Position numbers and translations under genes: made by a program. Below, piece after piece: positions 59,125 through 62,982 of a stretch of 64,000 bases of DNA. Within the stretch, counting starts at the first letter, position 1, and each line of letters opens with the position of its first letter. The notes beneath the pieces are model-generated. The model made no database searches. It had not been told where the DNA came from and saw only the letters and a program-made list of their open reading frames with translations. Location of the stretch: assembly GCF_004337705.1 (NCBI RefSeq), contig NZ_SKBU01000012.1, forward strand, positions 1 through 64,000, read 5' to 3'. Source of the stretch: Rubrobacter taiwanensis. Its GTDB lineage: Bacteria > Actinomycetota > Rubrobacteria > Rubrobacterales > Rubrobacteraceae.

Positions 59125-60174
59125 CTAGCCGAAGAAGGTCGCCAGGTCGTCGTAGAGCTCGCGCGGAACGGTCTTGGTCTCCTCGGTCGCCTCGGCCAGC
59201 GAGACCAGCACGATATCATTGCCCCTGAGCGCGACCATCTTGCCCCACTCGCCGTCCCGGACGGCCTCGGCGGCGCGCAGACCGTAGCGGGTGGAGAGGA
59301 TGCGGTCGTAGGCGGTAGGGGTGCCACCGCGCTGGAGGTGCCCCAGCACGACGTGCCGGGTGTCTATGCCGGTGCGCTCCTTCAGCTCGCCCGCGAGCGT
59401 CTCGCCGATGCCGCCCAGGCGCACGTGTCCGAACTCGTCTCGCTCGGCGGTCTGGGTGATGTACTCCTCGCCGATGGTCACGCCCTCGCTCACGGCCACG
59501 ATTCCCCAGGGCTCGCCCCGCTCGGCGCGCTTCTTGAAAAGATCGGCTACGGCGTCCAGGTCGGGCTCCACCTCGGGGATGAGGGTGACGTTCGCCGCTC
59601 CGGCCATCCCGGCGCCCCAGGTGATCCAGCCCGCGTGCCGGCCCATGATCTCCACGACTATGATCCGCTCGTGGCTTTTGGCCGTGGTGCGGATGCGGTC
59701 TATGGCCTCCGTTGCGATGGAGACGGCGGTGTCGTAGCCGAAGGTGGTGTCGGTCGCAGAGAGGTCGTTGTCTATGGTCTTGGGACACCCGACGACCCGG
59801 ATGCCGAACTCGTCGTGCAGCCTGCGGGCCACGCCTAAGGTATCGTCTCCGCCGATGGCGACCAGCGCGTCTATCCCGTTCTGCTCCATGTTCCTGACGA
59901 CCTTCTCGGCGTCGCCCTCTCTCTTGTAGGGGTTGGTGCGGGAGGAGCCCAGGATGGTGCCGCCCTCCTGCAGGATGTAGCGGACGTCGTCCACCTTGAG
60001 CGGGAAGATGTCGCCCTCCTTCGGGTCCAGAAGCCCCTTCCAGCCGAGGCGGATGCCCGCGACATCGTAGCCGTACTCGCCCGCGCACTTCATGGTCACG
60101 GCCCGGATCACGCCGTTCAACCCCGGCGCGTCGCCGCCCCCGGTCAGCATTCCGACCCTGCGTACCTCAGCCAT
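59125..60174 (-). CDS. pfkA: 6-phosphofructokinase, probably pyrophosphate-dependent
   Basis: A 349-aa PFK. The fold marks are LTGGGDAPGLNGVIRAV, GCPKTIDNDLSATDTTFG and MGRHAGWITWGAG. The donor site reads GGDDT at 108-112 and PKTIDND with Lys132. In ATP enzymes the first site is Gly (GGDGS), and the second is Gly (E. coli PGTIDND). Asp plus Lys is the pyrophosphate-dependent combination. It should phosphorylate fructose-6-P with PPi, reversibly. ATG is preceded by AGGAGGG. Confidence 0.9.
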   Translation of the reverse strand: MAEVRRVGMLTGGGDAPGLNGVIRAVTMKCAGEYGYDVAGIRLGWKGLLDPKEGDIFPLKVDDVRYILQEGGTILGSSRTNPYKREGDAEKVVRNMEQNGIDALVAIGGDDTLGVARRLHDEFGIRVVGCPKTIDNDLSATDTTFGYDTAVSIATEAIDRIRTTAKSHERIIVVEIMGRHAGWITWGAGMAGAANVTLIPEVEPDLDAVADLFKKRAERGEPWGIVAVSEGVTIGEEYITQTAERDEFGHVRLGGIGETLAGELKERTGIDTRHVVLGHLQRGGTPTAYDRILSTRYGLRAAEAVRDGEWGKMVALRGNDIVLVSLAEATEETKTVPRELYDDLATFFG

Positions 60175-60213
60175 CTCGCCTTTCCCTCCTGTGTCTCTCC
60201 CGTACTCCGGCTC

Positions 60214-60222
60214 AGTCTAGCA
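60214..60222 (-). promoter_or_regulatory. Extended -10 promoter for pfkA
   Basis: TGCTAGACT on the minus strand (60222 down to 60214), an extended -10 element of the same form as before infA (TGCTAGAAT). The predicted leader is about 33 nt and includes AGGAGGGAAAGG before the ATG at 60174. Confidence 0.5.
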
Positions 60223-60378
60223 AACCGGAATCCTGCGGCCATTATGCTACCCCTGCGCCGGGAGTCTCTACCTGAGGTTCGCCGGGCCCTCCGTCTGGGA
60301 GGCGAAATATCCTGTCGAGAAGGATGCTGTCCTCCGGTAGACTGGCCGTAAGCAATCGAGAACCGTTGGGGAACAGAT

Positions 60379-62334
60379 ATGTCGGATAAACGGGACCGTC
60401 CGCCCTCTTTGCTGGGAGACTCCTGCTCTGAAGGGACTTCGGGGCTGGAGGTCGTGCAGGCAAGGTTCGCCGGTCGCCGGCGGAGCTCTTTCGAGGATCT
60501 TGTCTCCGGTTACTCGTCCATGAGGGTGCTGACTTACTCCAACAGCGTCTCCATGATCGGGCGTGCCGCGGAGTTGCTGGACCGGATGGAGATCGTCTTC
60601 GGGTGCGAGGACGTTATCGGGAGCACGGCGGCGTACTTCCAGTTCCAGGAACAGCTCATCAAGGAGTTAGTAGACGAGGTAAGGGGCAAGGACGCTCTGG
60701 AGCAGAAGATCTCCTCGGGGGACGTGCGGCTCTACGTCGCGACGGAGACCGTCAACCACGAGAAGCTGTTCCTGCTGGAGGGCGAGCGGGGCCGGCGGGT
60801 CATTACGGGCTCGGCGAACTTCTCGGAGCGGGCGTTCTCCGGGCGGCAGAACGAGAGCTACATCTGCTTCGAGGACGACCCGGAAGCCTGGGAGTACTTC
60901 GACGAGAAGTACGAGCGGATCAAGGCCGCCTCCACCACGAGCATCTCCAAACGAGCGGTGCTCGCCGGCGGGTTCAGCCCGGAGCACCTGCCCGCTCTCT
61001 CTTTCGAGGAAGATTCCGGCGGGATCACCGTCGCGGTGGGAAAGCCGCCGGCACCCTCGGTGGTCCACAAGGTCATCGTGACGCGGCCGTCCAGGAAGTA
61101 CGAGGGGATGAGCCAGGTCATCCCGAGCCGCAACGGCCGGGCGAACATCGACCTTCAGAGGGCCTCCAGAGCGATCCGTTACATCAAGAGCAACTCCCGC
61201 ACGGAGGGTGCGAACCCGGAGGAGTACCTCAGCGTCTACCCGGAGTCCGGGGAGGTGGTCGTCTCGGGCGTGGTGCTGGATCTGGAGCCGGAGAAGCCGG
61301 ACGTCGCGCGGGACGTGAGGCTGCTTCTGGAGTACTTCCGGGGCTACGAGAACTTCAGGGGCGACGCGAAGAAGCTCGCCCGCGACTACTTCACCTTTAT
61401 GGCTTGGCTCTACGCCGGTCCTTTCGTCTGCGATCTCCGCAACGCGGCCCTCTCTCGCGAGGAGCACGTCCTCGACTACCCCACCTTCGGGATCCTCTAC
61501 GGCAAGAGCAACTGCGGCAAGTCCGAGCTGGTACGGACGCTGCTGGTCTCGATGTTCCAGAGAGAGGGGTTCCTGAAGAACGAGTGGTTCACCCGGACCC
61601 GGATGGAGGGTCTCATGGTCCAGAACAAACGTTACCCGCTCGCTTTCGACGATCTCGACCGCACCCGCTTCAACACTCATGCCGTCGCCCTGATCAAGGA
61701 CGACTACCTGACCCTGGACGAGTACCCGGTGACCGTCCTCTCCATGAACGCCGAGCAGGACACCTTCGGCACCGAGGTTCGCAAGCGGGCCTTGATCTTC
61801 TACACCAACGCTTCTCTTCCGGACCACGTGGGCGAGAGCCGAAAGCTCGCCAGCGACGTCCGGCGCACGAGACGCGAACTCGGCAACGCCCTCTATCGCG
61901 AGTACCTGCGGCGGGCGTTAGTAGCGCTCCGGGAGGAACGTTCGCGGGACATCCTGGCCTTCTCTTCGGAGATACTGCACGGCATCTTCGCCGAGCACTG
62001 CGAGGGAGAACTTCCCGCCTGGTGCCGGATTACGAGCATGGCGGACTACGAGCGGAGCAAACACGACAAGGTCCGGGACGAGCTGCTCCAGCTCATGCGC
62101 CACGCCCCGGACGCCTGGAAGCGGGACGCCAGCAAAGTCGTCCTCCGCCTCGCCGACATCCACGACCTGAGAAAGCTCAAGAAGGATGTGCCCGACTACC
62201 TCCTCGCCAGCGGCTCCCGGGGGAACGCCCTGGTCTTCGAGGCCCGGGATCTGGAGGAGTTCCTGGGAAGGCTCCCGCTCGAGAGACCCGGCCTCTCCGG
62301 CCTTCTGGCCCGCCTGTTCAAGGGCCGCGGGTAG
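60379..62334 (+). CDS. PLD-family nuclease fused to a P-loop NTPase, unknown system
   Basis: A 651-aa two-part protein that I do not recognise as a named system. Residues about 25-200 form a phospholipase-D-like domain with one HKD-type site: His127 and Lys129 in ETVNHEKLFLLEG, then GSANFSE (144-150) and Glu159. Residues about 310-515 are an NTPase: Walker A GILYGKSNCGKSELV (Gly375 to Ser382), Walker B-like YPLAFDDLDRTRF (419-431) and RALIFYTNASLP with Asn477 in a sensor/motif C position, like superfamily 3 helicases. Residues 550-630 look like a winged-helix tail. A single PLD half implies a dimer. It has its own upstream gap with a possible -10 (TAGACT, 60338-60343) and no obvious partner gene. 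Confidence 0.75.
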   Translation: MSDKRDRPPSLLGDSCSEGTSGLEVVQARFAGRRRSSFEDLVSGYSSMRVLTYSNSVSMIGRAAELLDRMEIVFGCEDVIGSTAAYFQFQEQLIKELVDEVRGKDALEQKISSGDVRLYVATETVNHEKLFLLEGERGRRVITGSANFSERAFSGRQNESYICFEDDPEAWEYFDEKYERIKAASTTSISKRAVLAGGFSPEHLPALSFEEDSGGITVAVGKPPAPSVVHKVIVTRPSRKYEGMSQVIPSRNGRANIDLQRASRAIRYIKSNSRTEGANPEEYLSVYPESGEVVVSGVVLDLEPEKPDVARDVRLLLEYFRGYENFRGDAKKLARDYFTFMAWLYAGPFVCDLRNAALSREEHVLDYPTFGILYGKSNCGKSELVRTLLVSMFQREGFLKNEWFTRTRMEGLMVQNKRYPLAFDDLDRTRFNTHAVALIKDDYLTLDEYPVTVLSMNAEQDTFGTEVRKRALIFYTNASLPDHVGESRKLASDVRRTRRELGNALYREYLRRALVALREERSRDILAFSSEILHGIFAEHCEGELPAWCRITSMADYERSKHDKVRDELLQLMRHAPDAWKRDASKVVLRLADIHDLRKLKKDVPDYLLASGSRGNALVFEARDLEEFLGRLPLERPGLSGLLARLFKGRG

Positions 62335-62496
62335 GGAGCGGAGCGCACTGCAGCACCTTGGTGGACGCGGGGAGAGCGGCGTACGCGAGTCGGAGCACCG
62401 GCTGAGCCAGGTTGGGAGGTGGCCTGCAACCGGACGCGATTTCTGGTATCCATTTAACTTGATGTCTGGTTGTGGTGCCGGACCGGAGGTGGCAGC
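62335..62496 (+). other. 160-nt intergenic region before the phosphatase gene
   Basis: No coding frame, tRNA-like fold or clear terminator was found. An A/T-rich patch (tccatttaacttgatg, about 62449-62464) could hold a weak promoter for the phosphatase-kinase pair, but no good -35/-10 pair is present. Confidence 0.3.
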
Positions 62497-62982
62497 TTGG
62501 CAAGCGTTCTCTTCGTCTGTATGGGGAACATCTGCCGCTCGCCGACGGCTCAAGGGGTCTTCGAGCGGCTCGTAGAGCGCGAGGGGCTGGAGGGCGAGAT
62601 CCGTGCCGACTCGGCCGGGACGGGCTCCTGGCACGTCGGCGAGCCTCCGGACCGGCGGGCGCAGGAGAGCGCGCGGCGGCGCGGGATAGACCTGAGCGGC
62701 CAGCGGGCGCGGCAGCTGGAGCCCGAGGACTTCGAGCGCTTCGACTACGTCGTGGTCATGGACCGGGAGAACTATCGCAACGTGCTCGCCATGTGTCCCC
62801 CGGAGCACCGGGAGAAGGTGCGCCTCCTGATGGAGTACGCGCCGGAAACCGGCGTCTCCGAGGTCCCCGACCCCTACTTCGGCGGGCCGGACGGCTTCGA
62901 GCGGGTTCTGGACCTCGTAGAGGAGGCCGCCGAAGGGCTGCTGGACGAGATCCGGGCCGGAGGCGGCGATGATGGCCGCTGA
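62497..62982 (+). CDS. Low-molecular-weight phosphatase (arsenate reductase-like LMW-PTP)
   Basis: A 161-aa protein starting at TTG 62497, 7 nt after GGAGG (62485-62489). The P-loop CMGNICRSPTAQG gives the C-x5-R nucleophile site (Cys8, Arg14). The general acid Asp is in EVPDPYFGGPDGF. A GTG at 62470 would add nine residues. LMW-PTPs next to fructosamine-kinase genes are known to dephosphorylate ribulosamine-type sugar adducts on proteins, so here protein repair is more likely than phosphotyrosine signalling. It overlaps the kinase gene by 14 nt. Confidence 0.88.
   Translation: MASVLFVCMGNICRSPTAQGVFERLVEREGLEGEIRADSAGTGSWHVGEPPDRRAQESARRRGIDLSGQRARQLEPEDFERFDYVVVMDRENYRNVLAMCPPEHREKVRLLMEYAPETGVSEVPDPYFGGPDGFERVLDLVEEAAEGLLDEIRAGGGDDGR

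Follow-up and report, generated by a model that had tools for sequence, protein, structure and literature searches.

A solitary gene between pfkA and a phosphatase gene

In the 64-kb stretch of Rubrobacter taiwanensis DNA analysed here (the window), a forward-strand gene at 60379..62334 encodes a protein of 651 amino acids that joins a PLD-type nuclease domain to a P-loop NTPase, likely of the SF3/D5-like type (PLD-SF3 protein). It is a single gene, supported both by its open reading frame and by full-length homologues, and its coordinates and length of 651 codons agree with the original prediction made from the sequence. That prediction also placed the gene on its own between pfkA and a protein-repair pair; it is indeed solitary, with pfkA on one side and a phosphatase–kinase pair on the other. 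On the left of the insertion lies pfkA (59125..60174, reverse strand), and on the right lies a low-molecular-weight phosphatase gene (62470..62982, forward strand) for which 38 of the family's 40 genomes have a relative. The neighbours of the window copy are metabolic and none is a defence gene. The G+C content of the PLD-SF3 gene is slightly below that of its flanks; we found no tRNA gene in the 64-kb window and no convincing direct repeats at the insertion borders.

A single-HKD PLD nuclease domain at the N terminus

Conservation was assessed in two alignments. The close alignment contains 12 homologues, drawn from Rubrobacter-like relatives, Chloroflexota, another family of the same phylum and Acetobacteraceae plasmids, which align over almost their entire length. 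The wide alignment, also of 12 members, adds Arcobacter, Athalassotoga, three lactobacilli and two haloarchaea, with identity falling to 15–18%. Residues H127, G144, S145, N147, G380, K381, P420, D424, N457, R470 and D524 are invariant across the wide alignment, and the persistence of the same residues at such low identity indicates conservation far beyond chance.

The nuclease domain spans residues ~23–195 (60445..60963, forward strand, as are all features of the protein). Pfam assigns it to PLDc_2 above the cut-off (1.2e-6), with a sub-threshold match to RE_NgoFVII, and Foldseek matches its predicted fold to the NgoAVII restriction nuclease (NgoAVII R, 3.5e-5) and to SauUSI (4.4e-4). PLDc_2 is likewise matched by 12 of 12 members of the close alignment and 12 of 12 of the wide one, and RE_NgoFVII weakly by 11–12 of 12 alignment members. 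The motifs expected of the PLD superfamily are present at the positions originally predicted: an HxK motif (H127-E-K129; 60757..60765), GSANFSE at residues 144–150 (60808..60828) and the acidic residue E159 (60853..60855). The lysine of the HxK motif is nearly invariant, being replaced by Arg in one distant member, and E159, although invariant in the close alignment, is Asn in the haloarchaeal members. The single-HKD nucleases NucT and MitoPLD are among the PDB matches of the wide-alignment profile. By motif and fold similarity, the N-terminal domain is a single-HKD PLD nuclease.

An NTPase of likely SF3/D5-like type

The NTPase region (residues ~306–520; 61294..61938) was delimited by its motifs, by profile–profile comparison with DUF5906 and by a profile match to the SCCmec helicase Cch. 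As predicted, a Walker A motif, GKSNCGKS, occupies residues 375–382 (61501..61524), and the Walker B-like FDDLD occupies residues 423–427, with acidic residues D424-D425 at 61648..61653; position 425 is Asp or Glu across the alignment. The prediction erred in taking Asn477 as the sensor, as this position varies (N, T, G and others). The invariant asparagine is N457 (61747..61749), a motif C or sensor-1 residue that occurs in the contexts SMN, TTN and SSN and aligns with the SN of DUF5906. Thirteen residues downstream, the invariant R470 forms with K469 a candidate arginine finger (61783..61788) that aligns with the RR of DUF5906. This layout of N457 followed by R470 points to an SF3-type NTPase, and the elements of such an enzyme (Walker A, Walker B, motif C Asn and a downstream basic residue) occur in the expected order as K381, D424, N457 and R470.

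Profile comparison points the same way. Alignment with hhalign to DUF5906, a D5/SF3-type family profile drawn from related genomes, gave a probability of 72.7% over 197 columns (the E values being uncalibrated), with Walker A, Walker B, the asparagine and the basic residue co-linear. The same procedure gave 23.7% for DUF927, 17% for AAA_21, 3.3% for BrxL, 1.1% for DUF3987 and 0.3% for a UvrD-like helicase, and thus lent no support to BrxL, DUF3987, AAA_21 or UvrD-like helicases as relatives of the NTPase. The best PDB match of the wide-alignment profile was Cch (3.8e-4), the aligned segment being short and reaching from Walker A to Walker B; Foldseek returned Cch at 5.6e-3 from a low-confidence model. 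No Pfam NTPase model exceeded its cut-off for the window protein; the NTPase gave weak matches to PF00910 (best 3.2e-4), an SF3 family found in RNA viruses. Co-linearity with DUF5906 and the Cch matches make it likely that the NTPase half is of the SF3/D5-like P-loop type. The predicted fusion of a PLD nuclease to an SF3/AAA-like NTPase is therefore supported by the PLDc_2 matches, the invariant NTPase residues and the DUF5906 alignment.

The two domains are connected by a poorly conserved, variable linker (residues ~197–283; 60967..61227), with pLDDT below 50 at residues 197–286. Two AlphaFold models were obtained, each built with five sequences. The first has a mean pLDDT of 56.7, with the PLD part mostly at 60–90; the second, covering residues 283–637, is poor (mean 56.4) and gave nothing at E <= 0.001 in Foldseek. 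Only the PLD part of the models yielded significant fold matches. The low quality of the NTPase models (mean pLDDT ~56) makes ring formation and helicase activity matters of inference. A winged-helix-like tail, also proposed in the original prediction, is plausible for the helical C-terminal region (residues ~540–635; 61996..62283), where the low-confidence model places strands at 580–583 and 586–589, a helix at 594–603 and a strand at 618–621; the suggestion draws on predicted secondary structure alone. We identified no target-recognition domain in the 651-residue protein.

Patchy distribution, acquisition and decay

Proteins that combine the PLD and NTPase domains were found in Actinomycetota, Chloroflexota, Acetobacteraceae, Thermus, Arcobacter, Athalassotoga, lactobacilli and haloarchaea. 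Within the Rubrobacteraceae, a match occurs in 7 of 40 genomes (4/22 among the good ones), with carriers and non-carriers side by side within genera; across the phylum, matches were found in 8 of 397 genomes. Plasmid-borne copies are present in Acetobacteraceae, Thermus, Arcobacter, Athalassotoga, lactobacilli and haloarchaea. The patchy spread anticipated by the original prediction was thus recovered, with differing loci and frequent carriage on plasmids. Searches of phage records, and scans of IMG/VR with six queries, returned no relative.

In five relatives (L039, L049, L055, L057 and L058), pfkA and the phosphatase gene adjoin each other at a spacing of ~110–150 bases with no PLD-SF3 gene between them; in the window, ~2.3 kb including the gene separates them. 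An AGTCTAG element upstream of pfkA is conserved in the window and these five relatives. Other carriers hold the gene elsewhere: ~1 Mb away from pfkA in one genome (G016), and among other genes, away from the pfkA locus, in another (G007). The empty site in relatives, together with the other loci in carriers, indicates that the gene was acquired. In the tree, copies from the window family group with those of Chloroflexota (97/98), and a copy from the same phylum falls outside, although on a long branch. These sequence comparisons indicate that the PLD-SF3 gene is horizontally spread, patchy and acquired in the window lineage.

What lies between pfkA and the phosphatase gene (window 60175-62499) varies within the family: L034, L037, L038 and L044 carry 0.3–1.3 kb of differing DNA there, among them L037 and L044 with other insertions between the two genes.

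Several copies have decayed. The G007 homologue (L020:13277-15226) has an in-frame stop inside the linker between PLD domain and NTPase, an N-terminal remnant alone persists near a serine recombinase in G033, in Thermus each of the two copies is interrupted by transposase genes, one Komagataeibacter xylinus (K. xylinus) copy has a displaced end beside a transposase, and one L. salivarius copy is broken by IS3. Such copies, in several genomes, show that the gene is dispensable. In G007 the stop is the sole one in frame and the two halves are otherwise intact; it may mark a pseudogene, a version divided into two genes or an error in the sequencing. The Acetobacter pasteurianus plasmid Apa386Bp1 carries two separate copies (L027:7902-9962 and L017:7992-10052). 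We reject a housekeeping role on the grounds of the patchy, decaying distribution, and the known housekeeping family that the original prediction had allowed for did not emerge from library, fold or distribution searches.

Genomic neighbourhoods of the homologues

Plasmid copies are often surrounded by toxin–antitoxin, partition and replication genes, and those of Acetobacteraceae are solitary among toxin–antitoxin modules, recombinases and transfer genes. Defence genes, which the original prediction had expected around homologues, lie directly beside them, as individual cases, in at least three lineages. On the Athalassotoga plasmid, the gene has next to it a UvrD/GajB-like helicase together with Type III methyltransferase and restriction-subunit genes; in G216, a divergent WYL regulator precedes the copy and an AbiLi homologue (2.1e-84) comes after it; and around the G016 copy lie the PADLOC candidates PDC-M41A/B, an RmrA/CapP-like regulator and an XRE-ImmA protein. 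Haloarchaeal plasmid copies sit among helicases and a PD-(D/E)XK nuclease, and Chloroflexota copies have metabolic neighbours.

Further genes were observed at some of these loci. Near the G016 copy, a gene for a replication protein (L019:883-3411) combines DUF3987 with an NrS-1 polymerase helicase-binding domain; it and a nearby LexA-like repressor suggest an integrated mobile element. Proteins of 375–390 amino acids are encoded on the opposite strand near haloarchaeal and Athalassotoga homologues (L069:4518-5645, L070:4464-5591 and L065:9102-10274), and the Arcobacter homologue has close by a 1372-residue protein (L026:11010-15128) without a Pfam or PADLOC match.

Proposed function and alternatives

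We favour, with a probability of roughly 60%, the reading that this mobile gene works on its own and encodes an NTP-dependent nuclease, which would destroy invading DNA of phages, plasmids or both. Relatives on plasmids and neighbouring anti-virus genes in several phyla and in haloarchaea argue that the protein is probably a one-protein defence directed at foreign DNA. In favour of a defence role, which we grade as probable from sequence and context, both domains have been kept together over very large distances with catalytic motifs intact; counting against it, the window copy and several others, including those of Chloroflexota, have metabolic neighbours only.

Single-HKD PLD nucleases function as dimers whose subunits share one active site, and the PLD domain would dimerize to form such a site in the manner of BfiI and SauUSI. 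Driven by ATP, the SF3/D5-like module could form a ring on DNA or translocate along it, with the tail and linker holding or gating the nuclease. Recognition of a foreign feature (a replication intermediate, a DNA end or a modification) would then bring about ATP hydrolysis and cutting, such that an SF3-like ring or motor on invading DNA licenses the PLD cut.

Plasmid copies set among toxin–antitoxin, partition and replication genes would fit a plasmid-maintenance role equally well. The protein would then be a maintenance or competition factor of plasmids or mobile elements, a DNA-processing nuclease–helicase that aids replication or resolution of its carrier or keeps out competing plasmids; chromosomal copies would be what is left of integrated elements. 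The frequent carriage on plasmids beside rep, par, relaxase and toxin–antitoxin genes agrees with such a role, as do the recombinases adjoining several copies and the resemblance of the NTPase to replication helicases of mobile elements (DUF5906 and Cch). Overall we consider it unlikely: only a small minority of plasmids carry the gene, with no single replicon type; the window, Chloroflexota and G007 copies are chromosomal and lack plasmid genes; and Type III restriction–modification, AbiLi or PDC-M41 genes are near neighbours in three lineages. The WYL regulator adjoining the G216 copy, the weak PF00910 matches of the NTPase and the capacity of PLD nucleases to cut single strands would suit another role, that of an NTPase-gated effector of abortive infection whose target is RNA or the host's own nucleic acid. 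The nearest PLD structures, however, cut double-stranded DNA and the NTPase is closest to mobile-element DNA helicases, and we regard this role as quite improbable. That the protein is a TDP1-like DNA-repair or end-processing enzyme, as the annotation of a haloarchaeal homologue as 'tyrosyl-DNA phosphodiesterase' and the appearance of TDP1 in Foldseek (ranked under restriction nucleases) might suggest, seems very improbable given its one HxK site with a GSxN signature, its best matches to restriction PLDs and a patchy, decaying and mobile distribution unlike that of repair genes.

Returning to a nuclease directed against invading DNA, we tentatively extend it, at odds well short of even, to a widespread one-protein immune family, spanning bacteria and archaea, whose SF3-type ring might have become a sensor or motor, loading on the replicating DNA of invaders and bringing a dimeric PLD nuclease to it. 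SF3-type rings are otherwise familiar from the replication initiators of viruses and mobile elements. If confirmed, the PLD-SF3 proteins would constitute a compact single-gene nuclease family, extending from Rubrobacter-like Actinomycetota to haloarchaea and without a whole-protein model in the libraries searched; they would be a defence nuclease with a motor of the replication-initiator type, and would offer a natural way to ask whether motors of this kind can distinguish invading replicons from the host chromosome.

Comparison with known systems

PADLOC, Pfam, NCBIfam and PHROGs, as searched, contain no whole-protein model of the family. PADLOC gave two weak partial matches to the window protein, PHROGs gave only marginal unnamed ones (best E 0.16), and NCBIfam and a PDB sequence search gave no useful match. 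In the literature searched, we found no description of a PLD plus SF3-like NTPase architecture and no identification of ZacB or mad8.

DISARM DrmC, Mokosh type II and the PADLOC families PLD_Helicase and ZacB link a PLD nuclease to an NTPase, either by association or by fusion. PADLOC matches to ZacB, DrmC and PLD_Helicase were weak, covering only the PLD motif in their best stretches; those to DrmC occurred in 4 of 12 members, and with pfkA and the phosphatase gene as neighbours and neither DrmA/B nor any other partner gene present, the window protein does not belong to DISARM. The NgoAVII, NgoFVII and BfiI nucleases resemble its PLD domain, as indicated by the best Foldseek match (NgoAVII R, PDB 4RCT) and the weak RE_NgoFVII matches, but the window protein has no B3 domain, no adjoining methyltransferase and a different motor. 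Its NTPase shares motif order and spacing with Cch and the DUF5906 or D5-type primase-helicases, yet it lacks a primase and has gained a PLD nuclease, and the Cch match is short and modest.

Two systems combine a comparable nuclease and motor in one protein. BrxL with a joined C-terminal HKD DNase, which exists in Type 1 BREX (PMC12839542), likewise pairs a ring-type AAA+ motor with an HKD nuclease, and BrxL forms an MCM-like ring able to serve in phage restriction (PMC10164562). It differs in its reverse domain order, HRD variant, BREX operon and low hhalign probability against the window-family NTPase; the window protein has no PF13337 match and no adjoining BREX genes, and is not a BREX BrxL. 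SauUSI, a Type IV ATP-dependent restriction enzyme (PDB 7CLG), is also a single chain with an N-terminal one-HxK PLD domain, a linker and an ATPase, and couples a PLD dimer to ATP-driven translocation (PMC7913695). Its motor is an SF2 helicase and it carries an SRA recognition domain, whereas the window protein has a single SF3/D5-like P-loop NTPase; Pfam scans detected neither an SF2 nor an SRA domain, which places the protein outside the SauUSI type. By analogy with these enzymes, the PLD-SF3 protein probably acts like a compact ATP-dependent PLD restriction nuclease, outside SauUSI, BREX and DISARM.
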